A DNA stretch of 64,000 nucleotides from Frondihabitans sp. PhB188. GTDB taxonomy: Bacteria > Actinomycetota > Actinomycetes > Actinomycetales > Microbacteriaceae. Location of the stretch: assembly GCF_003752365.1 (NCBI RefSeq), contig NZ_RJUO01000004.1:410355-474354 (forward strand), read 5' to 3'. How positions within the stretch are numbered: the stretch's first letter is position 1; each line of letters starts with the position of its first letter. The notes beneath the pieces were generated by a model. The model was given only the letters and a program-made list of their open reading frames with translations, ran no database searches and had not been told where the DNA came from. The position numbers and the translations under genes were made by a program. Of this stretch, positions 3,760-63,539 are shown piece after piece.

Positions 3760-4200
3760 ATGTCGCACGGCCTCCTCACGTTCATGGCGACCGTCACGCA
3801 CCTCGCTCTGTCGGTGCTGACGGCGGGAGTCCTCTTCTACGTCACCGGCTCCGATCCGATCGGCGAGTCCGACGCGAGCTTCCTGCTGGGCCCGGCCATG
3901 GTCCTGGCGTCGATGGCGTGCGTCTTCTTCGCTCTCGCGCGGCGCTTCGGGGTCGAGGCCCGCGACGGAGAATCCCCAGGGCGCAGGAACTCCCCGCCCG
4001 CACTGGCCGCCGCAGTCGCCAGCTACCTCGCGATGCTCCTCGTCGGCGGAGGGCTCTACGCTCTCGGCCGCCACGACGCTCTCTGGCTGGTCCTCTTCGC
4101 CGGGCGCTACGTCGCGAGCGGCTTCGTGCTGCTCACCTCCCTGTGGGCAGGTGCCGTGGTCGCCGCAACTCTGCTCCTGGCCCGCACCGGAGACGCGTGA
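3760..4200 (+). CDS. Small multi-pass membrane protein of unknown function
   Basis: 146 aa with about four hydrophobic segments (near residues 8-28, 40-62, 80-102 and 115-140), separated by a basic/polar loop containing RDGESPGRRNSPP. I do not recognise a family. It sits between the pil operon and the str operon and appears to have its own promoter (-10 box 6 nt upstream of ATG). One exact copy of the GCAGGAACTC word lies within it at 3983-3992, using an AGG arginine codon that is unusual for this genome. Confidence 0.7.
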   Translation: MSHGLLTFMATVTHLALSVLTAGVLFYVTGSDPIGESDASFLLGPAMVLASMACVFFALARRFGVEARDGESPGRRNSPPALAAAVASYLAMLLVGGGLYALGRHDALWLVLFAGRYVASGFVLLTSLWAGAVVAATLLLARTGDA

Positions 4201-4246
4201 CCCGGGAGTCCGGAGCGGCGTTCGCTCCCGGCACAGGCGAGCGCGT

Positions 4247-4275
4247 TTGATCTTGCCCTAGCATCCGGCTATTCT
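4247..4275 (+). promoter_or_regulatory. Promoter of the str operon
   Basis: A -35 box TTGATC (4247-4252) and a -10 box TATTCT (4270-4275) are separated by exactly 17 bp. Transcription would start near 4282, giving a leader of about 230 nt before rpsL. Confidence 0.72.
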
Positions 4276-4511
4276 TGCTCGGGTGTGCGCTTAGCGGCGC
4301 GCCCGATTTTCGGTCGAAGTTCGAAGACCGAAACAACCGTCTCTTCGGGGTGACGAACTTCTCGTTCCCCGCGCAGGCCGCGGACACTCTCCGCGGGATG
4401 ACGCCTGACCACAACCTCCAGCAAGTCGAGTGTTGCTGTCGTGCTCCAGAGATGAGGAAGCCGTCCGACCGGGGCGGCCAGAACCGAGAAGTACGAATCC
4501 AAGGAGAACCA
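4276..4511 (+). promoter_or_regulatory. Structured 5' leader of rpsL-rpsG
   Basis: A non-coding leader with two clear hairpins. TTTCGGTC (4308-4315) pairs with GACCGAAA (4326-4333). CCGCGGA (4378-4384) pairs with TCCGCGG (4390-4396) around a 5-nt loop. AAGGAGAA just before the GTG at 4512 is the ribosome-binding site. The leader may host feedback control of the operon, but no known S7-type target was recognised. Confidence 0.5.
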
Positions 4512-4886
4512 GTGCCAACTATTCAGCAGCTGGTCCGCAAGGGTCGCACGCCGAAGGTCGTCAAGACCAAGGCTCCCGCCCTGAAGGCCAACCCCCAGCA
4601 GCGTGGCGTGTGCACCCGTGTGTACACCACCACCCCCAAGAAGCCGAACTCTGCCCTGCGCAAGGTCGCTCGCGTCAAGCTGAGCAACGGCACCGAGGTC
4701 ACCGCGTACATTCCCGGCGAAGGTCACAACCTTCAGGAGCACTCGATGGTCCTCGTCCGCGGCGGTCGTGTGAAAGACCTCCCCGGTGTCCGCTACAAGA
4801 TCGTTCGCGGCGCTCTCGACACCCAGGCTGTCAAGAACCGCAAGCAGGCTCGCAGCCGCTACGGCGCGAAGATGGAGAAGAAGTAA
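4512..4886 (+). CDS. rpsL: 30S ribosomal protein S12
   Basis: A decoding-centre protein of the small subunit, 124 aa. The GTG at 4512 is chosen because it follows AAGGAGAA and gives the standard N-terminus [10 protein letters not shown]; the reading frame stays open further upstream but without support. Lysines at the streptomycin-resistance positions are wild type (TPKKPNS and GRVKDLPG). It overlaps rpsG by one base (TAATG), so the two are coupled. It is first in the str operon. Confidence 0.98.
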
Positions 4887-5356
4887 TGCCTCGCAAGGGT
4901 CCCGCTCCTAAGCGTCCCGTCGTCGCAGACCCCGTCTACGGCGCCCCGATCGTCAGCCAGCTCGTCAACAAGATCCTCCTCGACGGCAAGAAGGGTCTCG
5001 CCGAGCGCATCGTCTACGGCGCCCTCGCCGGTGTCTCGGCCAAGAACGGCCAGGACGCCGTCGTCACGCTGAAGAAGGCTCTCGACAACGTCCGTCCGAC
5101 CCTCGAGGTCCGATCGCGTCGCGTCGGCGGTTCGACCTACCAGGTCCCCGTCGAGGTCAAGCCTCACCGTGCGAACACCCTGGCTCTCCGCTGGCTCACC
5201 AGCTACGCCAAGGCTCGTCGCGAGAAGACGATGACCGAGCGTCTCATGAACGAGATCCTCGACGCGTCGAACGGTCTCGGCGCCGCTGTCAAGCGTCGTG
5301 AAGACACGCACAAGATGGCCGAGTCGAACAAGGCCTTCGCGCACTACCGCTGGTAA
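4886..5356 (+). CDS. rpsG: 30S ribosomal protein S7
   Basis: A primary 16S rRNA binder that organises the head of the 30S subunit, 156 aa, full length. Characteristic stretches are [10 protein letters not shown] at the N-terminus, [16 protein letters not shown] in the middle and AFAHYRW at the end. The ATG at 4886 shares its A with the rpsL stop. In other bacteria S7 is the autoregulator of the str operon. Confidence 0.98.
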
Positions 5357-5379
5357 GCACCACCGCCCGCAAGGGCACC

Positions 5380-5409
5380 GCCGGGCGGCTGCAACCGCTG
5401 CCGCCCGGC
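5380..5409 (+). terminator. Perfect 10-bp hairpin between rpsG and fusA
   Basis: GCCGGGCGGC (5380-5389) and GCCGCCCGGC (5400-5409) are perfect inverted repeats around a 10-nt loop. No T-run follows. It could reduce read-through into fusA or protect the 3' end of the upstream mRNA. Confidence 0.5.
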
Positions 5410-5446
5410 GACAACACTCTCTCTAACCCCCCAATCGGAGGAACCC

Positions 5447-7561
5447 GTGGCACAGGACGTGCTCACCGACCTGAACAAGGTCCGCAACATCGGCATCATG
5501 GCGCACATCGATGCCGGCAAGACGACGACCACCGAGCGCATCCTGTTCTACACGGGCATCACCCACAAGATCGGTGAGGTCCACGACGGTGCGGCCACGA
5601 TGGACTGGATGGCCCAGGAGCAGGAGCGTGGCATCACGATCACGTCCGCTGCGACCACCTGCTTCTGGAACAAGAACCAGATCAACATCATCGACACCCC
5701 CGGTCACGTCGACTTCACGGTCGAGGTGGAGCGCTCGCTCCGCGTGCTCGACGGTGCCGTCGCCGTCTTCGACGGCAAGGAGGGCGTCGAGCCCCAGTCC
5801 GAGACCGTCTGGCGTCAGGCCGACAAGTACGACGTCCCGCGCATCTGCTTCGTCAACAAGATGGACAAACTGGGCGCCGACTTCTACTTCACGGTCGACA
5901 CCATCATCAACCGCCTCGGCGCCAAGCCGCTGGTCATGCAGCTCCCGATCGGTGCGGAGTCCTCGTTCGAGGGCGTCGTCGACCTGGTCGAGATGCGCGC
6001 GCTGACCTGGCGCGGCGACGCAAAGGGCGACGTCGAGATGGGCGCCAAGTACGAGATCGAGGAGATCCCGGCCGACCTCAAGGAGAAGGCCGACGAGTAC
6101 CGCGCCAAGCTCCTCGAGGTCGTCGCCGAGACCGACGACGCGCTTCTCGAGAAGTTCTTCGCCGGCGAAGAGCTGACGGTCGCCGAGATCAAGGGCGCCG
6201 TCCGCAAGCTGACGGTCAACTCCGAGATCTACCCGGTGTTCTGCGGCTCCGCGTTCAAGAACCGCGGCGTGCAGCCGATGCTCGACGCAGTCATCGACTA
6301 CCTGCCCTCGCCGCTCGACGTGCCTCCCATGGAGGGCCACGACGTCCGCGACGCCGAGAAGATCATCATCCGCAAGCCCGAGTCGACCGAGCCGTTCTCG
6401 GCTCTCGCCTTCAAGGTCGCGGTGCACCCGTTTTTCGGTCGCCTCACCTACGTCCGCGTCTACTCGGGTCACATCGAGTCCGGCGCGCAGGTCATCAACT
6501 CGACCAAAGACAAGAAGGAGCGCATCGGCAAGATCTTCCAGATGCACTCCAACAAGGAGAACCCCGTCGACGGCGTCACCGCCGGCCACATCTACGCGGT
6601 GATCGGTCTCAAGTTCACGACCACGGGTGACACCCTGTGCGACCCGAACGAGCAGATCGTCCTCGAGTCGATGACCTTCCCGGAGCCCGTCATCGAGGTC
6701 GCCATCGAGCCGAAGACGAAGCAAGACCAGGAGAAGCTCTCCATCGCGATCCAGAAGCTCGCCGAGGAAGACCCGACGTTCCGCGTCGAGCTCAACGCCG
6801 AGACGGGCCAGACGGTCATCAAGGGCATGGGCGAGCTTCACCTCGACATCCTCGTCGACCGCATGAAGCGCGAGTTCAACGTCGAAGCGAACGTGGGCAA
6901 GCCCCAGGTCGCCTACCGCGAGACGCTCAAGAAGGGCATCGAGCGCTACGACTACACCCACAAGAAGCAGACGGGTGGTTCGGGCCAGTTCGCGAAGGTC
7001 CAGATCGCTCTCGAGCCCTTCGAGGTCACTGCCGAGTCGACGTACGAGTTCGTCAACAAGGTCACCGGCGGCCGCGTCCCGCGCGAGTACATCCCGTCGG
7101 TCGACGCCGGTATCCAGGACGCCATGCAGGTCGGCGTTCTCGCCGGGTACCCGACCGTGGGTGTCCGTGCACTGCTTCTCGACGGTGCGGCGCACGACGT
7201 CGACTCGTCCGAGATGGCGTTCAAGATCGCAGGATCGATCGCCTACAAGGAGGCTGCCCGCAAGGCCACCCCCGTGCTTCTCGAGCCGATCATGGCCGTC
7301 GAGGTGCGTACGCCCGAGGAGTACATGGGCGACGTCATCGGCGACCTGAACTCCCGTCGTGGCCAGATCGCCTCGATGGAGGACGCCAGCGGCGTGAAGG
7401 TCGTCCGGGCCAGCGTTCCGCTGTCCGAGATGTTCGGCTACGTCGGCGACCTGCGGTCGAAGACCTCGGGTCGCGCCGTCTACTCGATGACGTTCGAGTC
7501 GTACGCGGAGGTCCCCAAGGCTGTTGCCGAGGAGATCATCGCGAAGAACAAGGGCGAGTAG
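5447..7561 (+). CDS. fusA: Translation elongation factor G
   Basis: A GTPase that drives translocation of tRNA and mRNA on the ribosome, 704 aa. The G motifs are AHIDAGKTT (G1), DTPGHVDF (G3) and NKMDKLGAD (G4). Domains II-V follow, with the domain IV sequence [11 protein letters not shown]. The start is GTG, preceded by ATCGGAGGAA. It lies 90 nt after rpsG across a strong hairpin, so its dosage may be partly uncoupled from the ribosomal proteins. Confidence 0.98.
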
Positions 7562-7745
7562 CCCACCCCCGGGTCGGTCGGCCTGCAGAGAGTGGCTTCC
7601 ACAGCACTTATCCACACGTCGACCGGCTCGAAATGCGTGGTCGAGCCTCGACCGCGTAGCATGTGAACACACCAAATCGCAGATGTTCCGACTGGCCGCA
7701 CGGCTGGGCGGAGAGACTGCACCCGAGTCCTGAGGAGGACCCACA

Positions 7746-8936: not shown

Positions 8937-8974
8937 GACGATCTCCTGACGCGGTGATCAGCACTGCAGGGAGA

Positions 8975-9356: not shown

Positions 9357-9368
9357 GGCTCGCACCGA

Positions 9369-10489: not shown

Positions 10490-11281
10490 GTGATCGAGTG
10501 CATCCACGGTCTTGACATCGAACTGTGCGACATCTGCACCCCGAGAAAGCGCGACGAGGCGCAGGAACTCCCGGCCCCCGCCCGCCGCAGCCCCGTCTCG
10601 ACGGCCCGCGCAGTCCGCGCGCCGTCCACCCTCCGCACGCCGAAGGTGAAGGCGCCGTCCGACCCCGCCCTGCCCGACGTCGATCTGGCCGCCATGCGCG
10701 TCCACCACTGGACGCACCTCACCAACCTGCCGGCGATCATCGCCGATGGAGCCCTCCGCGCCGTCGCGGAGCCCGAGCTCGACGTGCTCTCGCCCGAGGC
10801 GCGCACCCGCCGCTCCGAGGTCACCGTCCCCTCCGGCGCCTCCGTCTCCGCGCACGTGCCGTTCGCCCTGACGCCCGACGCGGCCAGCTGGGACGCCGTG
10901 CGGCACGGCGCCGCAGGCGCGGAGTGGTCGGCAGCCGCCCGCGCCACGCGGGCCACCGACTTCGTCGTCCTCGTCGCCCCGGTGAAGTCCGTCGGCGACG
11001 GGTTCGTGTTCGCCGACGGGGATGCGGCCGCGCCGCTGACCCGCTTCGCGGAGGGCCTCGAGGAGGGGGCGAAGCTGGCGAGGCGCGCCTCGCTGGCCGA
11101 CCCCGAGCTCGCGCAGGCCGAGTTCCTGATTCCCGACGCCTTCGACCTGGCGGGCGTGACGCTCATCGGCGTGCCGAACGACCGCGCGCGCGACGAGGTC
11201 AAGGCCCTGCTCCGCGAGTACTCGGGGAAGGCGCCTCGCGTGGCCGTCTACCCGCCGTGGTTCAAGCCGTCCGACGAGTGA
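10490..11281 (+). CDS. DarT-like (DUF4433) ADP-ribosyltransferase with N-terminal zinc motif
   Basis: 263 aa. Residues 4-16 carry CIHGLDIELCDIC, a CxH...CxxC zinc-ribbon-like motif also found in other actinobacterial members. After a disordered Pro/Ala linker, a domain from about residue 68 resembles DarT, the enzyme that ADP-ribosylates thymidine in single-stranded DNA. Its landmarks are HHWTHLTNLPAII, SAHVPFALTP, FVFADGDAA, QAEFLIPDAF (with the candidate catalytic Glu) and a final VYPPWF. No DarG macrodomain antitoxin is adjacent. The GTG start follows GAGAGGAA, and a -10-like TAACGT lies at 10435-10440. The family call is from motif memory; substrate and role are unproven. Confidence 0.65.
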   Translation: MIECIHGLDIELCDICTPRKRDEAQELPAPARRSPVSTARAVRAPSTLRTPKVKAPSDPALPDVDLAAMRVHHWTHLTNLPAIIADGALRAVAEPELDVLSPEARTRRSEVTVPSGASVSAHVPFALTPDAASWDAVRHGAAGAEWSAAARATRATDFVVLVAPVKSVGDGFVFADGDAAAPLTRFAEGLEEGAKLARRASLADPELAQAEFLIPDAFDLAGVTLIGVPNDRARDEVKALLREYSGKAPRVAVYPPWFKPSDE

Positions 11282-29165: not shown

Positions 29166-30077
29166 GTGATGAGCGACGCCCCCGAGCCCGAGGTTCGGCT
29201 GAAGAGCGGAGACACGCGACTCCGGCTCGACATCTCGTACGACGGCACCCGATTCAACGGCTGGAGCACGCAACCGGGCCTGCGCACCGTCCAGGGCGAG
29301 ATCGAGGCGGCCATGGCGACCACGTTCCAGCGCACGCTCCCGGCTCCGAGGCTCGTCGTCGCGGGGCGTACCGACACGGGCGTCCACGCGACCGGCCAGG
29401 TCGCCCACCTCGACCTCAGCCCCGAGCAGCTCGCCTTTCTCCAGGTCGCGCACCGCAACAAGACGAAGTACCCTCCCTTCCCGCCCGCGAAGCGCCTCGC
29501 CCGGCGGATCAACGGCCTGGCCGGCGCCGAGGACGACCTCTTCGTCACCGACGCGACGATCGTCGACGGCGCCTTCGACGCCCGCTACTCGGCGCTGTGG
29601 CGGGAGTACGAGTACCGCGTCTCCGACCTCACCGGCCCCCGGCACCCGATCCGCCGTCTCGACACGCTGTGGACCGACGTCACCGTCGACGTCGACCTCA
29701 TGAATGCCGCCGCGCTCTCGCTCCTCGGCCTGGACGACTGGGCCGCCTACTGCCGACAGCGCGAAGGCGCCACGACGATCCGCACCCTCCAGGAGTTCCA
29801 CTGGCGTCGCGACCCCGACGGCGTGCTGGTCGCGCGTGTCCGTGCCGACGCCTTCTGTCACAGCATGGTCCGGTCGCTGGTCGGCGCCACGCTCGCCGTG
29901 GGGCAGGGGCTGCTCGCGGTCGACGACGCCGTGCGGATCCGCGACTCCCGGGCCCGCAAGGGGCAGTTCAAGGTCGCGGCGGCCCACGGCCTCACGCTGC
30001 GCGAGGTCCGCTACCCCGAAGCGCAGGAACTCGGGGCCCGCGCGTCCGTCACGCGGGCCCGCCGTCAGTCGATGTGA
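29166..30077 (+). CDS. truA: tRNA pseudouridine synthase TruA (positions 38-40)
   Basis: 303 aa; isomerises uridines 38-40 in the anticodon stem-loop of tRNA. The catalytic Asp is in AGRTDTGVHATGQV. Other family blocks are DISYDGTRFNGW and DAFCHSMVRSLVGATL. GTG at 29166 is immediately followed by ATG, so either may be used. It has its own promoter downstream of the rplQ terminator. One copy of GCAGGAACTC lies at 30023-30032. Confidence 0.95.
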   Translation: MMSDAPEPEVRLKSGDTRLRLDISYDGTRFNGWSTQPGLRTVQGEIEAAMATTFQRTLPAPRLVVAGRTDTGVHATGQVAHLDLSPEQLAFLQVAHRNKTKYPPFPPAKRLARRINGLAGAEDDLFVTDATIVDGAFDARYSALWREYEYRVSDLTGPRHPIRRLDTLWTDVTVDVDLMNAAALSLLGLDDWAAYCRQREGATTIRTLQEFHWRRDPDGVLVARVRADAFCHSMVRSLVGATLAVGQGLLAVDDAVRIRDSRARKGQFKVAAAHGLTLREVRYPEAQELGARASVTRARRQSM

Positions 30078-34844: not shown

Positions 34845-36692
34845 ATGTGTGGAATCGTTGGATATGTCGGCTCTGACAAGAGCGTCGAGGTTCTCCTCGG
34901 CGGCTTGAAGCGTCTGGAGTACCGGGGCTACGACTCGGCCGGAATCGCCGTGATCGCGCCCGACGGCTCGCTCGGCATGCGCAAGAAGGCCGGCAAGCTG
35001 CAGATGCTGGTCGACGACCTGACCGCGGCGCCGCTGGCCGACGGCAGCACCGGAATCGGCCACACGCGGTGGGCGACGCACGGCGGCCCGACCGACCAGA
35101 ACGCGCACCCGCACCTCGCCGACGGCGGCCGGCTCGCCCTCATCCACAACGGCATCATCGAGAACTTCTCCGAGCTCAAAGAAGAGCTGCTGCTCGAGGG
35201 AGTGCAGTTCCTGAGCGAGACCGACTCCGAGGTGGCCGCTCACCTGGTGGCCCGCGCCTACCGCGAGACCGGCGACCTCGGCGAGGCCCTTCGCGCGGTC
35301 GTGAAGCGCCTCGAGGGGGCCTTCACCCTGCTGGTGGTGCACGCCGACCAGCCCGGCGTCGTGGTCGGGGCGCGCAGGAACTCCCCGCTGGTCATCGGCC
35401 TCGGCGACGGTGAGAACTTCCTCGGGTCCGACGTCGCCGCGTTCATCGAGTTCACGCATCGCGCCATGGCCATCGGCCAGGACCAGCTCGTCACGATCAC
35501 CGCCGACGAGGTCACCGTCGTCGACTTCGACGGCAACCCCGTCGAGGCCACCGAGTTCGAGGTCACCTGGGACGCCAAGGCGGCCGAGAAGGGCGGCTGG
35601 TCGAGCTTCATGGCGAAGGAGATCTCGGAGGAGCCCGAGGCCGTCGCCAACACGCTGCTGGGCCGCGCCGTCGACGGCGCCGTGCACCTCGACGACCTGG
35701 AGCCGCTCCGAGAGCGCCTCCTGACCGTCAACCGGCTCATCATCATCGCCTGCGGCACAGCTGCCTACGCCGGGATCCTCGGCAAGTACGCGATCGAGCA
35801 GTGGTCGCGCCTCCCCGTCGAGGTCGAGCTCGCGCACGAGTTCCGCTACCGCGACCCGGTGCTCGACGAGCACACGCTCGTCGTCTCGATCAGCCAGTCG
35901 GGCGAGACGATGGACACCCTCATGGCCGTCAAGTTCGCTCGCGAGCAGGGCGCCCAGGTGCTGTCGATCTGCAACACGCAGGGCGCGACGATCCCGCGCG
36001 AGAGCGACGCCGTCATCTACACGCACGCCGGCCCCGAGGTCGCTGTCGCGTCGACCAAGGCGTTCGTCGCGCAGGGCACGGCGCTCTTCCTGCTCGGCCT
36101 GCACCTCGCGACGATCCGCGGCACGCTGACCGCCGACGAGATCGCCGAGCAGGTCGACGACCTCAAGGCCATCCCGGAGAAGATCTCGCGAGTGCTCGAG
36201 ACCGGCGAGCGCATCAAGACGCTGGCCGGCTGGATGGCCGACACCCGCTCCGTGCTCTTCCTCGGCCGCCACGTCGGCTACCCGATCGCGCTCGAGGGCG
36301 CTCTCAAGCTCAAGGAGCTCGCGTACATCCACGCCGAGGGCTTCGCCGCCGGCGAGCTGAAGCACGGCCCCATCGCTCTGATCGAGCCGGGCCAGATCGT
36401 CTTCGTGATCGTGCCGTCGCCTCGCGACCCGCGATCGCTGCACGCCAAGGTCGTCTCGAACATCCAGGAGATCCGCGCTCGCGGCGCACGCGTCATCGCG
36501 ATCGCCGAGGAGGGCGACGCGGCGGTCCTGCCGTTCGCCGACGAGGTGTTGCACATCCCGCTCGCGGCGCCTCTGTTCGAGCCGCTCCTCGCGGTCGTCC
36601 CGCTTCACATCTTCGGCATGGAGCTGGCGAGCGCCAAGGGGCTCGACGTCGACCAGCCGCGCAACCTCGCCAAGAGCGTCACGGTCGAGTAG
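34845..36692 (+). CDS. glmS: Glutamine-fructose-6-phosphate aminotransferase (isomerising)
   Basis: 615 aa; makes glucosamine-6-phosphate, the first step to UDP-GlcNAc. The nucleophile is Cys2 (MCGIVGYVG), so the start is firm. The glutaminase domain has [10 protein letters not shown]. Two SIS domains follow ([15 protein letters not shown] near residue 350), and the end is [13 protein letters not shown]. No glmS ribozyme was seen. GCAGGAACTC occurs at 35374-35383. It begins the glmS-acpS-alr-alr-tsaE run. Confidence 0.97.
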
Positions 36693-36695: not shown

Positions 36696-37070
36696 GTGGC
36701 CATCGTGGGGATCGGGGTCGATGTCGTCGACGTCGGCCGTTTCGAGCGCTCGCTCGAGCGGACCCCGGCGTTGCGCGCCCGGCTGTTCACCCCGACCGAG
36801 CTGGTCCGCGAGGGCGAGCCGCGCCGGATCGAGTCGCTCGCGGCCCGGTTCGCCGCCAAGGAGGCGTTCATCAAGGCCGTCGGCGGGTCGACCGGGATCT
36901 CCTGGCACGACATGGTCGTCGGCGCCGACGACCAGCGCGCGCCCTCTCTGCTGCTGAGCGGCGGTGCCGCGGTGCTGGCCGTGTCCCGGTCGGTGACGCG
37001 CGTGCACCTCTCGCTCAGCCACGACGCCGGCATCGCGACGGCGTTCGTCGTCGCGGAGAGCGACTCGTGA
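36696..37070 (+). CDS. acpS: Holo-[acyl-carrier-protein] synthase
   Basis: 124 aa; transfers phosphopantetheine to acyl carrier protein. The Mg-binding motif GIGVDVVDVGRFERSL and the FAAKEAFIKAVG motif are present. It starts with GTG 3 nt after glmS and overlaps the first alr by 4 nt (GTGA). CoaA nearby supplies the coenzyme A route. Confidence 0.95.
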   Translation: MAIVGIGVDVVDVGRFERSLERTPALRARLFTPTELVREGEPRRIESLAARFAAKEAFIKAVGGSTGISWHDMVVGADDQRAPSLLLSGGAAVLAVSRSVTRVHLSLSHDAGIATAFVVAESDS

Positions 37071-38167
37071 CCCGCGAGGCCGTCGTCGCGGTCGACCGCG
37101 CGGCGCTGCAGCACAACGTCGACGTGCTCCGCCGCGCCGTCGCCCCCGCCGCCGTGATGGCCGTCGTCAAGGCGAACGCCTACGGCCACGGCGCAGTCGA
37201 ATCGGCGCTGGCGTTCGAGGAGGCCGGGGTCGACTGGCTGGGCGTGGTCGACCTCGACGAGGCGGTGGCCCTGCGCGAAGGCGGCGTCGACGCGTCGATC
37301 CTGAGCTGGCTGCACGCACCCGGCGAGACGTTCGAGCGGGCGGCGGCGTTCCGCATCACGCCGGCGGTCTCGGACCTGGAGCAGCTCGAGGCGTGTGCTG
37401 CCGCAGGAGTTCCTGCGGTCCATCTCGTTATCGACACGGGGCTCAGCCGCAACGGCGCCACCTCGTCGGAGTGGCCAGCCCTCTTCGACCGGGCGGCCGA
37501 GCTCGCGGGCGTCGTCGAGATCGAAGGGCTGATGACCCACCTCTCGAACACGTCGCCGCACGAGGACGGCCACCAGATGGCGGCGTTCGTGCGCGCGGTC
37601 GGACTGCTCGCCGAGCGCGGCATCACTCCGCCGCTGCAGCACCTCGCCGCGTCGGCGGCCGCGCTGTCGTACCAGGCGTCGCGCATCACGATGGTGCGGT
37701 TCGGGCTGGCGATGTACGGCCTGAGCCCGTTCGACGACCGCGCCAGCGCCGACCTCGGTCTGAGGCCCGCGATGACCCTGTCGGCTCCGGTCATCGGCAT
37801 CAAGGCGGTCCCCGCCGGCGAGGGCACCTCGTACGGCTACACCTGGCGCGCGAGCGTCGACACCCGGCTGGCGCTGCTGCCGATCGGATACGCCGACGGC
37901 ATCGCCCGGCACGCCGGCAACAGCGCCCAGGTGCTGCTCGGCGGCAGGATGCGCCCCGTCGTCGGCCGCGTCGCCATGAACGCCCTCACGGTCGACATCG
38001 GGCCCGACGACCCGGCCGACCCCGTGCGCCTCGGCGACGAGGCCGTGTTCTGGGGCGACGAGGCCGCAGGCCACCCCACCGCCGCCGACTGGGCCGACGC
38101 CACCGGCACGATCAACTACGAGGTCGTCGCGACGCTGTCGCCGCGGCTGCCGAGGAGCTGCCGATGA
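37067..38167 (+). CDS. alr: Alanine racemase family protein, first copy
   Basis: 366 aa PLP-dependent fold-III racemase. The PLP lysine is K35 (AVVKANAYGHGA). The catalytic tyrosine block is TSYGYTWRAS, and IGYADGIARH follows. Conserved MVRFGLAMYGLSPF and TINYEVVATLSPR support an Alr identity. At the usual VGRVxMDQ position it reads VGRVAMNAL, with Asn instead of Asp. It starts at a GTG overlapping acpS and ends overlapping the second copy by 4 nt. It may be D-alanine-specific or act on another amino acid. Confidence 0.88.
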   Translation: MTREAVVAVDRAALQHNVDVLRRAVAPAAVMAVVKANAYGHGAVESALAFEEAGVDWLGVVDLDEAVALREGGVDASILSWLHAPGETFERAAAFRITPAVSDLEQLEACAAAGVPAVHLVIDTGLSRNGATSSEWPALFDRAAELAGVVEIEGLMTHLSNTSPHEDGHQMAAFVRAVGLLAERGITPPLQHLAASAAALSYQASRITMVRFGLAMYGLSPFDDRASADLGLRPAMTLSAPVIGIKAVPAGEGTSYGYTWRASVDTRLALLPIGYADGIARHAGNSAQVLLGGRMRPVVGRVAMNALTVDIGPDDPADPVRLGDEAVFWGDEAAGHPTAADWADATGTINYEVVATLSPRLPRSCR

Positions 38168-39990: not shown

Positions 39991-40692
39991 ATGCTTCTGG
40001 CGATCGACACCTCCGCGGGCACATCGGTCGCCGTGGTCGACCGCGACGGCGGCGTCCTGGCCGAGGCCACCGAGTTCGACACGCGCCGTCATGCCGAGGT
40101 CGTCGGCGAGCTGATCGCCGCGTGCCTCGACGAGTCGGGCATCGCGCCGCACGGCCTCAGCGCCGTCGTCGCGGGCATGGGCCCCGGGCCGTTCACAGGT
40201 CTGCGCGTCGGAATCGCGGCCGCGCGCGCCTTCGCGTTCGGCGCGGGCAAGCCCTGTCTGCCGCTGGTCAGCCACGACGCCATCGCCTTCGAGCGGCTCG
40301 GCGGCCTGGCCGTGGCGACCGGCTCTGCGGATGCTGCCCCAGCGACGACCGGCACCGCGACGCCGTTGCTCGTCGTCACCGACGCGCGCCGCCGCGAGGT
40401 GTACTGGAGCGCTTACGGCGGGCTCGACGAGGCGGGGCTCCCCGTGCGGATCGGGGCGCCCGCGCTGACCCGGCCGGCGGAGCTCGACGAGGCGGTGTCG
40501 AGTTCCTGCGGTGCGGACTTCGCCGAGGCCGCCACGCGCACGGATCCCGCGGCGACGACCGTGTCGGCCGGCGCTCTCGGCATGCTCGGCGAGACCCTGT
40601 TCGCGAACCGGCGCCCGTTCGCCGCCGACGAGCCCCTCTACCTGCGGTCGCCCGACGTGACGGTCCCGGGCGCACCGAAGCGCGTCTCGTGA
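39991..40692 (+). CDS. tsaB: tRNA t6A synthesis protein TsaB
   Basis: 233 aa ASKHA-fold protein that pairs with TsaD. The N-terminus [19 protein letters not shown] and the [20 protein letters not shown] block are typical. It lacks the TsaD metal-binding histidines. It overlaps rimI by 4 nt. GAGTTCCTGC occurs at 40500-40509. Confidence 0.93.
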
Positions 40693-47485: not shown

Positions 47486-47517
47486 GGCCCGGCAGGAACT
47501 CTCCTGCCGGGCCTTTT
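47486..47517 (+). terminator. Terminator after the substrate-binding protein gene
   Basis: GGCCCGGCAGGA (47486-47497) and TCCTGCCGGGCC (47502-47513) form a perfect 12-bp stem with an ACTC loop, followed by TTTT. The word GCAGGAACTC (47492-47501) spans the left arm and loop. Confidence 0.93.
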
Positions 47518-54533: not shown

Positions 54534-54564
54534 CCGCTTCCGCCTCGACCCCGCCGTTTCGGTT

Positions 54565-54592
54565 CGACCCCGCCTGTCCGCAGGCGGGGTCG
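54565..54592 (+). terminator. Terminator after guaB
   Basis: CGACCCCGCCTG (54565-54576) and CAGGCGGGGTCG (54581-54592) form a perfect 12-bp stem with a TCCG loop. Confidence 0.82.
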
Positions 54593-54660
54593 TGCCGTTC
54601 CGGAGGGCCCGTCGCAGGAACTCCGGCGGCCGCCGTCCGGCCCCGCCAGAGGGCGACCGC

Positions 54661-54672: not shown

Positions 54673-55794
54673 GTGACTGAGGTAGAGATCGGCGTCGCCA
54701 AGCGCGCGCGCAGGGCATATGCGTTCGACGACATCGCGGTCGTCCCGTCGAGGCGGACGCGCGATCCGCGCGATGTCAACGTCGGGTGGTCGATCGACGC
54801 GTTCCAGTTCGAGACGCCCATCATCGCGGCCCCGATGGACTCCGTCGTCAGCCCCGAGACGGCGATCCGCATCGGCCGGCTCGGCGGACTTGGCGTCCTC
54901 GACCTCGAGGGCGTGTGGACCCGCTACGACGACCCCGAGGCCGTCCTGCGGGAGATCCGCGAGCTGCCCGACGAGGTCGCCACCGCCCGCATGCAGGAGA
55001 TCTACGCCGCTCCGATCCGTCCGGAGCTCGTGACGGAGCGCCTCGCCCAGATCCGCGCTGCGGGCGTGCCCGTCGCCGGGGCGCTCAGCCCGCAGCGCAC
55101 CCAGGACCTCTACCAGACGGTCGTCGACGCCGGCGTCGACATCTTCGTCATCCGCGGCACCACGGTGTCAGCCGAGCACGTCTCGAAGAGCAGCGAGCCG
55201 CTCAACCTCAAGAAGTTCATCTACGAGCTCGACGTGCCCGTCATCGTCGGCGGGGCCTCGACCTACACCGCGGCGCTGCACCTCATGCGCACCGGCGCGG
55301 CGGGTGTGCTCGTCGGATTCGGCGGAGGCGCGGCGTCGACCACCCGCACCTCGCTGGGCATCCACGCGCCCATGGCCACGGCCCTCGCCGACGTCGCCGG
55401 CGCGCGCCGCGACTACCTCGACGAGTCGGGCGGGCGCTACGTCCACGTCATCGCCGACGGCGGACTCGGCACGTCCGGCGACATCGTCAAGGCCGTCGCG
55501 GTCGGAGCCGATGCCGTCATGCTCGGCGCCGCGCTCGCCCGCGCCACCGACGTGCCCGGCGGCGGCTACCACTGGGGCGCCGAGGCGCATCACCCCGAGC
55601 TGCCCCGCGGCCGCCGCGTCCAGGTCGGCTCGACCGGAACCCTCGAGAACATCCTCTTCGGGCCTGCGCCGACCGCCGACGGCCAGGCGAACCTGATCGG
55701 CGCGCTGCGTCGCTCGATGGCGACGACCGGCTACAGCGATCTCAAGGAGTTCCAGCGCGTCGAGGTCGTTGTCGCGCCGTACCACAAGCAGTAG
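54673..55794 (+). CDS. guaB3: GuaB3 family IMP dehydrogenase-related protein
   Basis: 373 aa without CBS domains. It has the IMPDH-like barrel (FDDIAVVPSRRTRDPRDVN at the start, then IIAAPMDSVVSPETA). At the catalytic loop it reads GFGGGAASTTRTSLG, so the Cys of GuaB is replaced. This is usual for the actinobacterial GuaB3 family, whose role is debated. It starts with GTG and ends at EVVVAPYHKQ. A partial copy of its 3' end lies just downstream. Confidence 0.92.
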   Translation: MTEVEIGVAKRARRAYAFDDIAVVPSRRTRDPRDVNVGWSIDAFQFETPIIAAPMDSVVSPETAIRIGRLGGLGVLDLEGVWTRYDDPEAVLREIRELPDEVATARMQEIYAAPIRPELVTERLAQIRAAGVPVAGALSPQRTQDLYQTVVDAGVDIFVIRGTTVSAEHVSKSSEPLNLKKFIYELDVPVIVGGASTYTAALHLMRTGAAGVLVGFGGGAASTTRTSLGIHAPMATALADVAGARRDYLDESGGRYVHVIADGGLGTSGDIVKAVAVGADAVMLGAALARATDVPGGGYHWGAEAHHPELPRGRRVQVGSTGTLENILFGPAPTADGQANLIGALRRSMATTGYSDLKEFQRVEVVVAPYHKQ

Positions 55795-55859: not shown

Positions 55860-56037
55860 TGCGCTTGCGAGTTCCTGGGCCATGCCCGAGTTCGCTGTGG
55901 GCTTCCGGCCGGGGTCCGCGGCAGGGAAGTAGTTCGTCTCCTGGAGAGTTATCCACAGGAGTGGCGCAGCCCGGCTTCCGTCGATTTCCGCGACGGTAAG
56001 CTGAGACGACTGCCCCCGAGCTCCAGGAGACCATCAG

Positions 56038-56583: not shown

Positions 56584-58113
56584 ATGCACCTTGGCGAAGA
56601 GCTCGTCGTACTGGGCGTACTCCTTCTTCTGGCGTACGTCCTCGGCAGGCTGGCCAAGCTCATCGGGCTTCCCACCATCCCGATCTACATGCTCGTGGGC
56701 CTTCTCGCGAGCCCGCACGTCGGCTGGTTCCCGCTCGACTTCCACTCCGACAAGATCGAGCTCATCGCGATCTTCGGCCTCATCCTGCTGCTGTTCAACC
56801 TGGGGCTCGAGTTCGACCAAGACGAGTTCTTCGGCAACGTCGGCCGTCTCGTCCTCTCGGGCGGCAGCTACATCGCCATCAACATGGTCGTCGGGCTCGC
56901 GTTCGGCTTCTGGCTCGGGTGGGGCAGTCGCGAAGCCCTGATCGTCGCCGGTATCACGGCCACCTCGTCGAGCGCGATCGTGACGAAGCTCCTGATCGAG
57001 CTCGGCCGGCTGGCGAACCGCGAGACGCCGATGATCCTCGGCGTCACCGTCGTCGAAGACATCTTCATCGCGATCTATCTCGCGATCGTCTCCGTCGTCC
57101 TCAGTGGCGAGACCGACCCGCTGCCGGTCGTCGGCAAGCTCGGGGTCGCGTTCCTGTTCCTGATCGTGATGTTCACGATCGCGCGGTGGGGCGGCAAGTA
57201 CGTCTCACGGCTCATGCGCACCAAAGACGACGAGCTCTTCACCGTCCTCTTCTTCGGGCTGGCCGTCCTGTTCGCCGGCATCGGCGAGATCCTCGGCGTC
57301 ACGGATGCGATCGGCGCCTTCCTCATCGGACTCGTCTGCGGTGCCACGCGGTTCCGCAACCGCATCGAGACCTTCGCGCTGCCGATGCGCGACGTGTTCG
57401 CCGCGTTCTTCTTCCTGAACTTCGGTCTGAGTCTCAACCCGGGCACCTTCCCCGAGGTGGTGTGGCCCGTCGCGGGAGCCGTCCTGATGACGATCGTGCT
57501 GAACGCCGGCGCGGGCCAGTTCGTGGCGTGGATCAACAAGCTGGGGCCGCAGGCGGGCATCAACGCGTCCGCGATCCTCCACAACCGCGGCGAGTTCGCG
57601 CTGATTCTCGCCACGCTGTCGCTCGGCGCGGGGCTCGATGACCGCATCCAGCCCTTCGCCGGCCTGTACGTGCTGGTGATGGCGGTCATCGGTCCGTTGC
57701 TCGCGGCGAATTCCACCAGGATCGGCGGCGTACTCTTGCGTTCGCGGAAGCTCCCGGCGAAGGCCGGTCGCGACGGCGAGGTCGAACCCCGAGACATCAT
57801 CGCTCCGCGCGGCGCCGAGGGGATCGCCCTGATGGAAGCGGCGCTGGCCGGCGACGTGTCCGACGAGCACGACGCCGACGGAGTCGGCAGCGACGACGAG
57901 GCCGACGGCATCGAGTCGGGCGGCGACGCTCGGCCCGGGGTGCGCGAGCCGGAGACGGCCGCGGCGCAGAACGACCCCTACGACGACTACGGCGAGTTCC
58001 TGCCCGATGACGAGCCCGTGTTCGACGCCGCCGCAGAGCAGGCCGGGCAGCAGTCCGACCAGCGCGCGACACGGCAGCCCGATCCGGTACGACAGAGAGA
58101 CCCCGAGTACTGA
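56584..58113 (+). CDS. Cation/proton antiporter, CPA2 family (KhtU/KefB-like)
   Basis: 509 aa. About 12-13 transmembrane helices span residues 5-385. NLGLEFDQDEF (helix 3 end), TATSSSAIVTKLLIE and LHNRGEFALILATLS are the CPA2 landmarks. The last 120 residues are a cytoplasmic, acidic, disordered tail rich in Asp/Glu. The start is ATG, 3 nt after the KhtT-like gene; the stop overlaps the SURF1 gene by one base. Probable role is K+ efflux and pH or osmotic balance. GAGTTCCTGC occurs at 57994-58003. Confidence 0.9.
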   Translation: MHLGEELVVLGVLLLLAYVLGRLAKLIGLPTIPIYMLVGLLASPHVGWFPLDFHSDKIELIAIFGLILLLFNLGLEFDQDEFFGNVGRLVLSGGSYIAINMVVGLAFGFWLGWGSREALIVAGITATSSSAIVTKLLIELGRLANRETPMILGVTVVEDIFIAIYLAIVSVVLSGETDPLPVVGKLGVAFLFLIVMFTIARWGGKYVSRLMRTKDDELFTVLFFGLAVLFAGIGEILGVTDAIGAFLIGLVCGATRFRNRIETFALPMRDVFAAFFFLNFGLSLNPGTFPEVVWPVAGAVLMTIVLNAGAGQFVAWINKLGPQAGINASAILHNRGEFALILATLSLGAGLDDRIQPFAGLYVLVMAVIGPLLAANSTRIGGVLLRSRKLPAKAGRDGEVEPRDIIAPRGAEGIALMEAALAGDVSDEHDADGVGSDDEADGIESGGDARPGVREPETAAAQNDPYDDYGEFLPDDEPVFDAAAEQAGQQSDQRATRQPDPVRQRDPEY

Positions 58114-58982
58114 TGCACGACACCGACGTGAGGCCAGGCCCGACAGAGGCGACCCTTCCCGACACGATGTGGGAGGTCGCTCGTCGACCCCGCTGGATCG
58201 GCGCGCTCGTCTTCGCGCTCGCGGTGGCCGCGCTGTTCGCCTTCCTCGGGCACTGGCAGCTCGACCGCAGCGTCGAGAGCCTCAAGCCGGCCAACACCGG
58301 CTCCGAGACCCGCAAGGTGCTCTCCGACATCACCGAGCCGCAGACCGACTTCCTCGACCGGCTCACCGGCCAGAAGGTATCGGCGACCGGCGCGTTCGAG
58401 CAGGGCGACTTCCGCGTGCTGAGCGGCCGCCTCAACGACGGCAAGACGGGCTACTGGCTGGTCGGCCGATTCGTCGACTCGGCGAACGACGCGACCCTGG
58501 CGGTGGCGGTGGGGTGGGCCCCGACCGCGGCGGGAGCCCGGGCGGCGGAGGTCGACGTTCCTGCGACCTCGATCTCTCTCGACGGCCGGTACCTGCCGAG
58601 CGAAGCCGCCGACGACGGCAAATTCCAGCAGGGGGAGGCGACGGTGCTCTCGGTGCCCGAGCTCATCAACGAGTGGAACGACTTCTCAGGCGACGTCTAC
58701 AACGGCTACGTGGTCTCGGCGACGACCTACGGCGACCTGACCGCGATCTCCTCGCCGCCGCCGATCGACAAGGCGACGATCAACTGGCTCAACCTGTTCT
58801 ACGCGGTCGAGTGGGCCGTGTTCGCGGGCTTCGCGATCTTCCTCTGGTTCCGTCTGGTGCGCGACGCATTCGAGCGCGAGATCGAAGAGGCGCAGGAACT
58901 CCTCGCGGCCTCCGACCCCGCCGCCGCAGCCTCTCTCGACGCCGGGGCACCCGCCGACGGCCGCCGGACCGACCTCGATTAG
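58113..58982 (+). CDS. SURF1-family protein
   Basis: 289 aa. Two transmembrane helices (about 33-52 and 225-248) flank an extracytoplasmic domain, the SURF1 architecture linked to cytochrome c oxidase assembly. WIGALVFALAVAALFAFLGH and the WQLDRSVESLK region correspond to the conserved first helix. It has a long inserted loop compared with proteobacterial SURF1. The ATG overlaps the antiporter stop. GCAGGAACTC occurs at 58892-58901. Confidence 0.85.
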   Translation: MHDTDVRPGPTEATLPDTMWEVARRPRWIGALVFALAVAALFAFLGHWQLDRSVESLKPANTGSETRKVLSDITEPQTDFLDRLTGQKVSATGAFEQGDFRVLSGRLNDGKTGYWLVGRFVDSANDATLAVAVGWAPTAAGARAAEVDVPATSISLDGRYLPSEAADDGKFQQGEATVLSVPELINEWNDFSGDVYNGYVVSATTYGDLTAISSPPPIDKATINWLNLFYAVEWAVFAGFAIFLWFRLVRDAFEREIEEAQELLAASDPAAAASLDAGAPADGRRTDLD

Positions 58983-58985
58983 ACT
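58980..58985 (+). promoter_or_regulatory. -10 box of the DUF3817 gene
   Basis: TAGACT ends 7 nt before the ATG at 58993 and overlaps the stop of the SURF1 gene. A leaderless transcript is likely. Confidence 0.5.
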
Positions 58986-58992
58986 TGCCCCC

Positions 58993-59436
58993 ATGCCCCT
59001 GAAGCCCCGCCCGCGCAACATCCCCAAGATCCCGGGGGCGGTGCGCCTGTACAAGATCTCCGCCTACGTGACGGGCGTGATGTTGCTGCTGCTGGTCTTC
59101 GAGATGGTCATCAAGTACACGCCGCTGGCGACCGAGATGGCCATCGGCGATGCCCGCGGGTTCTTCGTGCCGCGCGGCACGATCGCTGGCGGGGCATTCG
59201 ATCTCTCGCTGGGCATCCTCATCGCCCACGGCTGGCTGTACGTCGTCTACCTGTTCACCGACTTCCGCCTCTGGAGCATCATGCGCTGGCCGTTCTCGCG
59301 GTTCATCCTGATCGCCCTCGGCGGCGTCGTCCCCCTGATGTCCTTCTTCGTGGAGCGCCGCATGGCTCAGATCGCACTGTCCGAGTACGAGAACCTGCAG
59401 GCCGACCGCGCCTCGGTTCAGGCGGCTGCCGCATGA
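58993..59436 (+). CDS. DUF3817 membrane protein
   Basis: 147 aa with about three to four transmembrane helices. The sequence [20 protein letters not shown], the segment [20 protein letters not shown] and the basic-ended helix [20 protein letters not shown] match the DUF3817 family, which often sits beside guaA in Micrococcales. It overlaps guaA by 4 nt. The function is unknown. Confidence 0.87.
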
Positions 59437-61016: not shown

Positions 61017-61054
61017 CCGCGCGGCGCTAGGGGCGGCGTTCGGGGCCGGCGTTC

Positions 61055-61448
61055 GCGTGCCCGGCGCGAAGTGGCCCTTGTCGTCGGGGCAGGCGTGCCC
61101 GGCGCGAGATGGCTCTCGTCGTCGGGGCAGGTGTGCCCGGCGCGAGATGGCCCTCGTCGTCGGCGAGGCGTACCCGGACGACAGGCGTGGCCATTTCGTC
61201 GCGGGGGCGCCGCGAGTTTGCGGCGCGCCATCGCGGCGCCGCGGGGCGCACGAGATCGGCGAGAGCGTGAGCGCCGAGATGGCCGTGGCCGTCGGCTCGG
61301 ACCCGGTTCGCCGACGCGCACGGCCATCTCGCGCGGGCCGGGGCTGTCCCCGCGCGCCTCGGGCGGGGCGTGCGTGCCGCGAAGTGGCTCTGCCCGTCGC
61401 CCTGCCGGGCGCAGGCCGACGCGCACGGCCACCTCGCGCGCCCGGGCA
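61055..61448. repeat. Non-coding cluster of 38-bp repeats and inverted copies
   Basis: The 478-nt gap between guaA and the yccA-like gene holds three adjacent units of about 38 bp (61055-61092, 61093-61130, 61131-61167) sharing GTGCCCGGCGCGA(A/G)(A/G)TGG and GTCGTCGG. Further copies of the GCGARRTGGCC core follow in both orientations: a 13-bp perfect inverted repeat at 61275-61287/61319-61331, and an imperfect one at 61379-61388/61428-61437. An inverted unit ends the cluster (61419-61448). No gene was supported here. Confidence 0.82.
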
Positions 61449-61453
61449 CACGA

Positions 61454-61485
61454 AAGGGCCGCCCTCCCGGAGGAGGGCGGCCCTT
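61454..61485. terminator. Bidirectional terminator between guaA side and the yccA-like gene
   Basis: AAGGGCCGCCCTCC (61454-61467) and GGAGGGCGGCCCTT (61472-61485) form a perfect 14-bp stem with a CGGA loop. On the minus strand it is followed by TCGTG just after the stop of the yccA-like gene. Confidence 0.88.
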
Positions 61486-61494
61486 CAGCGACGG

Positions 61495-62334
61495 CTAGTT
61501 GTTGCCGCGCAGGATCGCGAGCATGCGCAGGATCTCGGTGTACAGCCACACGATCGTGACGACGAGGCCGAAGGCGGCCTGCCAGCCGAAGATGCGCGGG
61601 GCGCCGTTGTCGACGCCGACCTTGATCTGCGTGAAGTCGAGCACCAGCGAGTACGCGGCGAGCAGCACCACGACGATGCCGATCCAGAAGCCGAGCGGAA
61701 TCCCGAGGAACTCGATCGAGCGCAGGCCGAACTGGCCTGAGGTGACGCCGGTCAGCTGCAGGACGAAGTTGATCAGCGAGAAGACGGCGTAGCCGACGAT
61801 GGCGACCAGGAAGATCTGCGTCGCGCGCTTGGAGGCGCGGACCTTGCCCGACGCGAACAGGGCGAGCGTCACGGCAAAGACGCCGAGCGTGCCGAGGACC
61901 GCCTGGATGACGATGCCATCCCATCGCGACTCGAAGATCGCCGAGATGCCGCCGACGAAGATGCCCTCGAAGCCGGCGTAGGCCAGGACCAGCGCGGCGG
62001 ACGGCCTCTTCTTGAAGATGTTGACCATCGCGAGCACGAACCCGACGATGGCGCCGACGAGCATGAGCTGCGGAACCCACCAGCCGACGGCGGCGCCGGC
62101 GAGAAGGACGACGAACGCGCCGAACGTCTTCGCGATGGTGTCTTCGTAGGTCATGCGGTCGGTCTGATCGGGCGACGCGCTGGGCTTGCTGTAGAGCTCC
62201 TGGAGCTGCTCGGCCGTCATGTCGGCCTTCGCGAGCGACAGTCCGGCGTTCTGCTCCTGACGCCACTTGTTCAGGTCATTGCCGTTGTTCGAAAAGGCCG
62301 GCGACTGACTGAAGCCGGGATTCGAGTGAGCCAT
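61495..62334 (-). CDS. YccA/Bax-inhibitor-1 family membrane protein
   Basis: 279 aa. About 80 cytoplasmic residues (including DMTAEQLQELYSKPSASPDQ) precede seven transmembrane helices (about 85-270) of the Bax1-I family. The ATG at 62334 is preferred over a longer open frame because CCGGAGG lies just before it. Relatives such as YccA interact with the FtsH protease; YetJ-type members leak Ca2+. No operon partner is seen. Confidence 0.88.
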   Translation of the reverse strand: MAHSNPGFSQSPAFSNNGNDLNKWRQEQNAGLSLAKADMTAEQLQELYSKPSASPDQTDRMTYEDTIAKTFGAFVVLLAGAAVGWWVPQLMLVGAIVGFVLAMVNIFKKRPSAALVLAYAGFEGIFVGGISAIFESRWDGIVIQAVLGTLGVFAVTLALFASGKVRASKRATQIFLVAIVGYAVFSLINFVLQLTGVTSGQFGLRSIEFLGIPLGFWIGIVVVLLAAYSLVLDFTQIKVGVDNGAPRIFGWQAAFGLVVTIVWLYTEILRMLAILRGNN

Positions 62335-62522
62335 TGGGTCCTCCGGGGATCCGTTGCTGGTGGGTGATGCAGTGGTGATCGGTGCGTGGTGATCGCTGAT
62401 GCCTTGTTGAGCGTTCACTGTATCGGCACCTGTCGCGAGAGCCCTGAGAATATGCCTGATGAGAGGCTGATTCGCGAGAGGCGAACATGCACATCGTGCA
62501 GAGTTGCGGCTCACAGTGCGGC

Positions 62523-62528
62523 TAGCGT
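62523..62528 (+). promoter_or_regulatory. -10 box of the GDPD gene
   Basis: TAGCGT ends 6 nt before the GTG at 62535. No Shine-Dalgarno lies between them, so a leaderless transcript is likely. Confidence 0.5.
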
Positions 62529-62534
62529 TGACGC

Positions 62535-63539
62535 GTGAGCCACGAACCCCTCGTCATCGCCCACCGCGGAGCCAGCGGACACCGCCCGGAGCACGGCCTC
62601 GACGCGTACCGTCTCGCGGTCGAGCTCGGCGCCGACGCGATCGAGCCCGACATCGTCGCGACCCGCGACGGCGTGCTGGTGCTGCGGCACGAGAACGAGA
62701 TCTCCGGGACGACGGATGTGGGGCGGCGTTCCGAGTTCCTGCGCCTGAAGACCACGAAGGAGGTCGACGGAGCCGTGCAGACCGGATGGTTCACGGAGGA
62801 CTTCACCTGGGCCGAGCTGTCGACGCTGCGCGTGCGCGAGAGGCTGCCGGAACTGCGCCCCGCCAGTGCGGCCCACGACGGGGAGGGCGGGATCCTGCGC
62901 CTGAGCGACCTGCTCTCGCTTCTCGACGGCGATGAGGCCCGCGCCCGCGGGGTCGGGCTGGTGGCCGAGGTGAAGCACGCGACGTACTTCGACTCGATCG
63001 GCCTGCCGCTCGGCGAGCTCGTCGCGGCCGAGCTGGCTGCCGCGGGCTGGACGGACGACCCCCGCCTCACGTTCGAGAGCTTCGAGCGGACCGTTCTCGA
63101 CGACCTCCGCACCCGCGGCGCGGGCGGCAGCTACGTCTACCTGCTCGACGCCGAGGGAGCCGCCTACGACCTGGTCTCGCGCGACGGCTCCGCGGCCTCG
63201 ACGTACGCGTCTCAGCTGACCGCCGCCGGTCTCGACGGCCTCGCGTCGGGGCTCGACGGGATCTCAGTGCCGAAGAAGATGCTGCTCGGGCCGACCGGCG
63301 AGGCCGACCCGGCCCTGGTGGGCCTCGCTCACGCTCGAGGGCTAGCGATCTACACGTGGACCCTCCGCCCCGAGAACGCCTTCCTGGCCAAGTCGAACCG
63401 GTCGGGCGGCGCTCGCGCGGAGCACGGCGACTGGCGCACCGAGTTCTCCGAGATCGCCTCGACCGGCGTCGACGGGCTGTTCGCGGACTTCCCGGAGCTC
63501 GCCCGCGAGGCGCTCCGGACGGAGGTCTCCGTCGACTGA
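62535..63539 (+). CDS. Glycerophosphodiester phosphodiesterase
   Basis: 334 aa. It hydrolyses glycerophosphodiesters to glycerol-3-phosphate and an alcohol. Conserved residues are in IAHRGASGHRPEHGLDAYR, EPDIVATRDGVLVLRHE (metal Glu/Asp and catalytic His) and VAEVKHATYF. No signal peptide is seen, so it is probably cytoplasmic. It starts with GTG. GAGTTCCTGC occurs at 62733-62742. Confidence 0.92.
   Translation: MSHEPLVIAHRGASGHRPEHGLDAYRLAVELGADAIEPDIVATRDGVLVLRHENEISGTTDVGRRSEFLRLKTTKEVDGAVQTGWFTEDFTWAELSTLRVRERLPELRPASAAHDGEGGILRLSDLLSLLDGDEARARGVGLVAEVKHATYFDSIGLPLGELVAAELAAAGWTDDPRLTFESFERTVLDDLRTRGAGGSYVYLLDAEGAAYDLVSRDGSAASTYASQLTAAGLDGLASGLDGISVPKKMLLGPTGEADPALVGLAHARGLAIYTWTLRPENAFLAKSNRSGGARAEHGDWRTEFSEIASTGVDGLFADFPELAREALRTEVSVD

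Follow-up and report, generated by a model that had tools for sequence, protein, structure and literature searches.

A species-specific over-represented DNA word in Frondihabitans sp. PhB188 and related words across the Microbacteriaceae: candidate DNA-uptake dialects

Background

The actinobacterium Frondihabitans sp. PhB188 (Microbacteriaceae) is the source of the stretch of 64,000 nucleotides analysed here (contig NZ_RJUO01000004.1, positions 410,355 to 474,354), which we call the window, and in which a first-pass annotation had drawn attention to the ten-nucleotide word GCAGGAACTC. The word has 11 exact copies in the window, where 0.09 are expected (maximum 1) by 100 dinucleotide-preserving shuffles and 0.52 by a fourth-order Markov model. 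It belongs to a system of words that is real, strong and family-wide, and that is unreported in the literature searched: among the best matches, with subscription papers and preprints outside the scope, no paper, judged by its title or abstract, describes uptake words or words of this sort in Microbacteriaceae or other Actinomycetota.

The window and its word copies

The window begins (1-3588) with part of a type IV pilus locus, all on the forward strand, whose products may form part of a DNA-uptake machinery. It encodes a PilD-like prepilin peptidase (1..846; Pfam A24_N_bact and Peptidase_A24 at 13-846), a PilM-like pilus assembly protein (892..1941; Pfam PilM_2, E 1.3e-42), a PilN-like protein named by its position, with no Pfam match and the same place in the congeners (1938..2855), and a PilO-like protein (2857..3588; Pfam PilO, E 6.5e-6). 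Upstream, in stretch L033, lie pilB, pilT, pilC, a pilin gene and three minor-pilin-like genes.

All the word copies reported earlier were recovered with their positions and strands. On the forward strand they lie at 3983..3992 (inside open reading frame (ORF) 3760-4200), 10561..10570 (ORF 10490-11281), 30023..30032 (ORF 29166-30077), 35374..35383 (ORF 34905-36692), 47492..47501, 54614..54623 and 58892..58901 (ORF 58167-58982); on the reverse strand they lie at 37407..37416 (ORF 37067-38167), 40500..40509 (ORF 39991-40692), 57994..58003 (ORF 56584-58113) and 62733..62742 (ORF 62535-63539). The copies at 47492 and 54614 fall outside the genes called by a simple gene caller, making 2 of the 11 intergenic. 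The first contributes to the left arm and the loop of a terminator-like hairpin (fold -36 kcal/mol, z -7.5), and the second borders on a dispersed repeat or lies inside it. The 10.6-30 kb block, said to be free of copies, indeed has none between 10571 and 30022; this is a weak signal because only about 3.3 are expected there. As for the near matches with one change, those at 55747 and 55802 are correct; three others had been misplaced, and really lie at 55869, 50066 and 18153 (given as 55865, 50054 and 18143).

Two intergenic stretches of the window, 54540-54660 and 61270-61445, have about 70-84% identity to several other places in the same genome and are dispersed repeats; the latter has inverted arms.

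Abundance of the word in the genome

The complete assembly of this strain (G000; 3.79 Mb, 10 contigs) contains 646 copies of GCAGGAACTC (320 + 326), one per 5.9 kb, and only 4 (3 + 1) of the reversed word used as a control, so that the genome-wide count is far above expectation. The over-representation is strong on both strands and in coding and non-coding DNA. Exact copies exceed every variant: in 564 kb of contigs C1-C5 there are 114 of them and at most 27 of each of the 30 one-base variants, the commonest being GCAGGAACTG (27 copies). The proposed preference for a preceding C holds for 84 of the 114 sampled copies, and more generally the flanks favour GGGC on the 5' side and G or C on the 3' side.

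The influence of codon usage was tested by 60 synonymous-codon shuffles of the window and 20 further stretches of the own genome, 433 kb in all; gene borders are approximate because the gene caller is a simple codon-usage script. Called genes contain GCAGGAACTC 64 times, against 8.8 +/- 2.1 after shuffling, and the six phases hold 8, 3, 28, 16, 8 and 1 copies, against null values of 0.0, 0.2, 1.4, 7.2, 0.0 and 0.0. The excess thus does not come from one reading frame or one codon pair. Genome counts, codon shuffles and variant counts all support the earlier view that selection, or drive, acts on the DNA word itself. A phase-balanced score alone gives no clean separation of words, since unrelated ones reach 12-13.7, and our word calls rest instead on the finding of related words time and again and on the ratio of observed to expected counts. 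One candidate, CGAGCAGC, was rejected as a codon-pair artefact confined to one phase.

Distribution over contigs and strands

Stretches were sampled on contigs C1-C5, C6 and C7. The density of GCAGGAACTC is 1.9-2.2 per 10 kb in the C1-C5 stretches (0-8 in single 20-kb stretches). No copy is found in nine stretches of C6 (180 of 195 kb), where 36 are expected, nor in three stretches of C7 (60 of 69 kb), where 12 are expected. The GC content of these two contigs is 63-64%, against 68.5-70.6% elsewhere. C6 carries a recombinase that resembles Curtobacterium plasmid recombinases; C7 encodes a PRiA4_ORF3 protein and also PEPCK and other metabolic genes, and its stretch L134 has no plasmid match. 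We call both contigs plasmid-like only, as they have no demonstrated replication gene.

C6 also contains (L035:13087-13189) an iteron-like array of AAAGCCGCAAAG repeats, mostly in 16-bp steps, which fits a plasmid origin.

In the 25 word-bearing own stretches 62 copies are forward and 52 reverse (heterogeneity chi-square 17.2 on 25), 49 being on the G-rich strand and 65 on the C-rich strand; as both strands are mixed, a strand-polar word of the Chi or FtsK type was dropped. Strands are mixed in 17 other genomes too, at low power (3-4 stretches each), with G014 borderline (7.1 on 3); the word of the eighteenth genome in this test is a palindrome. Inverted arrangements comprise one perfect GCAGGAACTC pair and one half-word terminator-like hairpin, and opposed half-words within 14 bp occur in 5 cases among the 114 copies, where about 1.4 are expected.

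Words of the Frondihabitans congeners

In 59 relatives GCAGGAACTC has 1-80 copies, and in six congeners 21-36; its expansion is peculiar to the present species among the genomes searched. Five of the congeners (G001, G003, G004, G005 and G006; G002 was left out) were sampled for words of their own, which were re-tested by synonymous shuffles and phase because ATC-CTG is a preferred codon pair. All five have over-represented words above the codon null that share GCAGGA or AGGAT, GCAGGATCC, GCAGGATCGC and GCAGGATGC being among these related words. For example, in genes CGCAGGATC is found 24 times in G006 (1.9 expected), CGCAGGATCC 10 times in G005 and 8 times in G001 (0.4 expected in each), CAGGATCCGA 7 times in G004 (0.1 expected) and GCAGGATGC 16 times in G003 (3.0 expected).

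Words of this older type are also present in strain PhB188. Its chromosome stretches (L019-L034, L144-L152 and the window; 564 kb) hold 39 copies of GCAGGATCC, compared with 7 on C6 and 2 on C7, and 16 of GCAGGATGC; in the genes of a subset of these stretches GCAGGATCC is found 13 times against 1.6 expected. The chromosomal copies are likely remnants of the congeners' word.

At orthologous positions, GCAGGA stands within 12 bp of own sites in 17 of 47 pairs, whereas random positions give about 1-3%. The cores of control words, compared between three congeners and not with the own genome, are kept in 0/24 to 31/39 pairs. Site 3983 has a GGATCCTGC-, GCATCCTGC- or GATCCTGC-type word, on either strand, at or near it in four of the five congeners, in poor alignments. 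Site 10561 has GCAGGA in three of five (G006, G003 and G005). Site 35374 reads CGCCGCAACTC in four congeners and CGGCGCAACTC in the fifth, the differences being substitutions with no gap. At site 40500, which reads CGCAGGAACTC in the own genome, G004 and G005 have CGCAGGATCC, G001 CGCAGGAGCC, G006 CGCAGGATGC and G003 GAAGGATGC. Insertion of a mobile 10-mer is not favoured, the alignments to the congeners being ungapped at 35374, at 37407 (in all five) and mostly at 40500; other sites align poorly.

Words across the Microbacteriaceae

Words were counted in 150 whole genomes of the family, three of them Frondihabitans. CGCAGGATSS reaches 1069 copies in G001, 459 in G004, 335 in G075, which belongs to another genus, and 274 in the own genome; the other 146 of the 150 have 7-208. 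A second word, GGAGGCGCG, occurs 913-2043 times in G063, G137, G083, G036 and G132, which represent three genera, against 192-337 for controls, and is slightly raised in G152. It was first met in six named Frigoribacterium loci (35 of 75 loci used), where its excess in genes is modest (32 vs 10.0 +/- 2.9) and 22 of 54 copies lie outside genes; judging from this word, G063 and G137 may themselves be Frigoribacterium. In G132 (C3 stretches L162-L164) 14 of 15 sampled copies are intergenic and four intergenic inverted pairs occur among the 15, so that GGAGGCGCG may be mainly a terminator element in genus g31. G137 is also rich in the GCAGGA-bearing GCAGGAGGCG (11 vs 0.7 expected).

A blind word search covered 60 kb of each genome, or 40 kb in one case; the own sample consisted of three stretches known to hold the word, and that of the congeners was the region syntenic to the window. 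Of 33 genomes 30 were scorable, three of low GC content being left out. The top word belongs to the GGATSC/AGGATC/GGAGGC/own family in 22 of the 30, that is, in 19 of 25 genomes with a type IVa pilus (T4aP) and in 3 of 5 without. Outside Frondihabitans these related words are mostly of the CGGATGC type. The core common to the words of the family is GGA, extended to GCAGGA within Frondihabitans and in G137.

In 67 of the 150 family genomes CGGATGC outnumbers its reversed control fourfold or more; the same is true of none of 139 genomes from other families of the order, where the ratio, read by hand, is about 0.5-3.5; the ratio is crude because the control word, CGTAGGC, contains TAG. It falls to 0.75-1.11 in G000, G001, G004, G075, G063 and G137, all of which have another word. 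G022 has a ratio of 8.2 with a very low control, yet no such word appears in its blind search. In the named-locus check (37 of 75 loci; no genes were called in the single-locus sets of Demequina and Frigoribacterium CG_9.8), CGGATGC is in excess in Leifsonia (44 vs 13.4), Cryobacterium (71 vs 21.4), Glaciibacter (22 vs 5.4) and Lacisediminihabitans (8 vs 3.0); three Curtobacterium sets give 18-19 vs 11-14 and Cellulomonas 22 vs 14.7, and the named loci of Nocardioides and Arthrobacter show no excess. For CGGATCC there is an excess in one of the Curtobacterium sets (26 vs 10.1) and in Nocardioides (15 vs 5.3).

In G079 and G148 (genus g72) and in G123 (g14), the ratio of CGGATGC to its control is only 0.30, 0.32 and 0.43, respectively; avoidance caused by a restriction system is one possibility.

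Pilus and competence genes

Uptake words would be expected in a genome with a type IV filament and with ComEA and ComEC, and strain PhB188 has all of these: besides the pilus locus, the gene of a ComEA-like HHH_3 protein adjoins comEC on C1. Among 33 sampled genomes PilT is above the cut-off in 25; of the 30 that the search for PilM also covered, 22 have PilT, and PilM is present in exactly those 22. In G003, G005 and G006 PilM was found by tblastn. The ten genomes that are outliers for CGCAGGATSS or GGAGGCGCG all have PilM, the base rate being 76 of 150, and over all 150 genomes CGGATGC abundance shows a weak association with PilM (p = 0.012).

The minor-pilin-like genes (PilV/W/X-like; L033:16509-19998) were compared in trees covering L059-L133, L058, L236 and L237. 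The PilV/W/X proteins of strain PhB188 are closer to those of some Frigoribacterium than to those of most congeners. The PilX tree groups the PhB188 protein with five Frigoribacterium as its sister group (support 99/97), within a clade of ten rows that includes G003, another Frigoribacterium and two Curtobacterium; G001, G004 and G006 stand elsewhere, with other Frigoribacterium. The four Frondihabitans rows come together in the PilM tree. Minor-pilin cassettes therefore appear to have been exchanged among Frondihabitans, Frigoribacterium and Curtobacterium, and PilM and PilC appear to follow the genus. A cassette swap, considered as a lead to the receptor, was rejected as the cause of the dialect switch: Frigoribacterium with either cassette share one word, and G003 has a different word in the same clade.

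Interpretation

On balance we favour the view that the Microbacteriaceae carry family-wide, species-specific marker words, either uptake dialects outside Neisseriaceae and Pasteurellaceae, served by several kinds of filament, or a new form of self-marking not connected with uptake. The chances are about even, in our judgement, that GCAGGAACTC is the own-species dialect of family-wide self-recognition words, most likely working like DNA-uptake words. Word-bearing DNA would be preferred by a receptor at the cell surface, located on a type IV filament (the locus's own T4aP, or another such as Tad/Flp in relatives without it), and ComEA and ComEC would then import it. Repeated recombination of word-bearing fragments would act as a drive, building up the word evenly on both strands of the chromosome and not on plasmids. 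A shift in the preference of the receptor would let a new word spread and the old one decay; the present species would have switched in this way from a GCAGGAT(C/G)-type word whose remnants it still holds. Chi or uptake words had been proposed earlier as analogues: a Chi-like role is disfavoured by the lack of polarity, and an uptake-like role is supported by the dialects, the even spread, the absence from plasmid-like contigs and the pilus, ComEA-like and ComEC genes.

Known uptake words offer the closest comparison. The DNA uptake sequences (DUS) of Neisseriaceae form eight dialects with a CTG core required for transformation, according to the parts of PMC3630211 consulted. Like them, GCAGGAACTC is an over-represented, non-palindromic 10-mer that occurs on either strand, inside genes and between them, the words of relatives share a core, and the same genome has type IV pilus, ComEA-like and ComEC genes; unlike them, it has another sequence in another phylum, word abundance in the family is not tied to T4aP, and its uptake and receptor are hypothetical. 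The uptake signal sequences (USS) of Pasteurellaceae are likewise short words present in hundreds to thousands of copies, of several types and with an inner core that is conserved; the sequences are unrelated, and uptake bias is demonstrated for USS and only proposed for GCAGGAACTC. USS and DUS are frequently arranged as inverted repeats with a terminator role, as stated in the part of PMC12616744 consulted; the own stretches show the one inverted pair and the one half-word hairpin described above.

Several observations weigh against uptake. A cognate receptor was not found, the search for pilins covering the pilus locus, and the type of minor-pilin cassette does not track the word dialect. 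ComEC is present in 33 of 33 tested genomes, word-rich and word-poor alike, and does not discriminate for that reason. The suggested pilus link is not supported as a requirement: among genomes of at least 2.5 Mb the 69 with PilM and the 47 without do not differ in CGGATGC abundance (p = 0.57), PilM is missing from 25 of the 67 CGGATGC-rich genomes, clear words occur in G062, G105 and G077, which lack PilM and PilT, and in six of the 25 T4aP-bearing genomes the top word of the blind search is not of the related family. The CGGATGC ratio is below 2 in 42 of the 150 genomes, many of them small or without another known word, and it is only partly low in the other GGAGGCGCG genomes (1.8 in G083, 1.9 in G132 and G036, 2.9 in G152). 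The sharing of GCAGGA at orthologous sites is no proof of selection because it lies within the range of the control words, inverted pairs are few in other genomes, and no paper on transformation in Frondihabitans is among the matches listed. Uptake may proceed without T4aP: the actinobacterium Micrococcus luteus, which possesses comEA and comEC, relies on Flp pili for its transformation (PMC6370729, consulted in part).

The main rival, which we hold possible but clearly less probable, is a word that marks the chromosome for some intracellular protein, which would bind it and act in nucleoid organisation, repair or non-polar segregation; dialects would arise by co-evolution of protein and word. 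The word-rich genomes without PilM and PilT speak for it, and the even, non-polar spread and the absence from plasmid-like contigs fit it too. On the other side, no binding protein is known, no search for one having been made, and replacing hundreds of sites within one genus would be hard without a drive such as uptake.

A word driven by repair or methylation, arising from biased repair around a methylated target as for the cyanobacterial highly iterated palindrome HIP1, is unlikely. Over-represented HIP words, like ours, are replaced by alternates in some relatives, and the family word CGGATCCG of G062 is a palindrome; however, HIPs are palindromes linked to matching methyltransferases (PMC4390886, in the part consulted, for both statements on HIPs), whereas GCAGGAACTC is non-palindromic by inspection and its exact copies exceed every one-base variant.

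We give very little credence to a polar chromosomal word, such as a Chi-type hotspot or an FtsK-orienting sequence (KOPS). These are likewise over-represented oligomers found genome-wide, and the density of Chi in Escherichia coli is of the order of one per 5.9 kb; but Chi and KOPS words are strand-polar, and ours, with oriC and dif unlocated, shows no polarity in its own stretches or, at the low power mentioned, in 17 other genomes, and differs within one genus. Codon-pair usage, base composition or a repeat or assembly artefact is next to untenable and is refuted as a full explanation by the codon shuffles: GAG TTC CTG, the reverse complement, does consist of preferred codons and its phase has the highest null, but the excess is seen in five other phases and in non-coding DNA, the flanks differ, the true artefact CGAGCAGC keeps to one phase, and the congeners hold GCAGGAACTC at background only.

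Should the words serve uptake, Actinomycetota evolved a sequence-based choice of partner DNA independently, and a dialect switch becomes directly open to study, five sampled congeners using GCAGGAT/GCAGGAG-type words and one species GCAGGAACTC. If uptake depends on the word, placing the right one on donor DNA may ease the transformation of these bacteria. If they are not uptake words, a large actinobacterial family carries an unexplained and strongly maintained chromosomal marker.

A minor observation concerns the assembly, in which homopolymer tracts of C or G, as long as 94, occur near contig ends, at the ends of L038 (C9) and at L027:57-119 (start of C2), and are probably a sequencing or assembly artefact.

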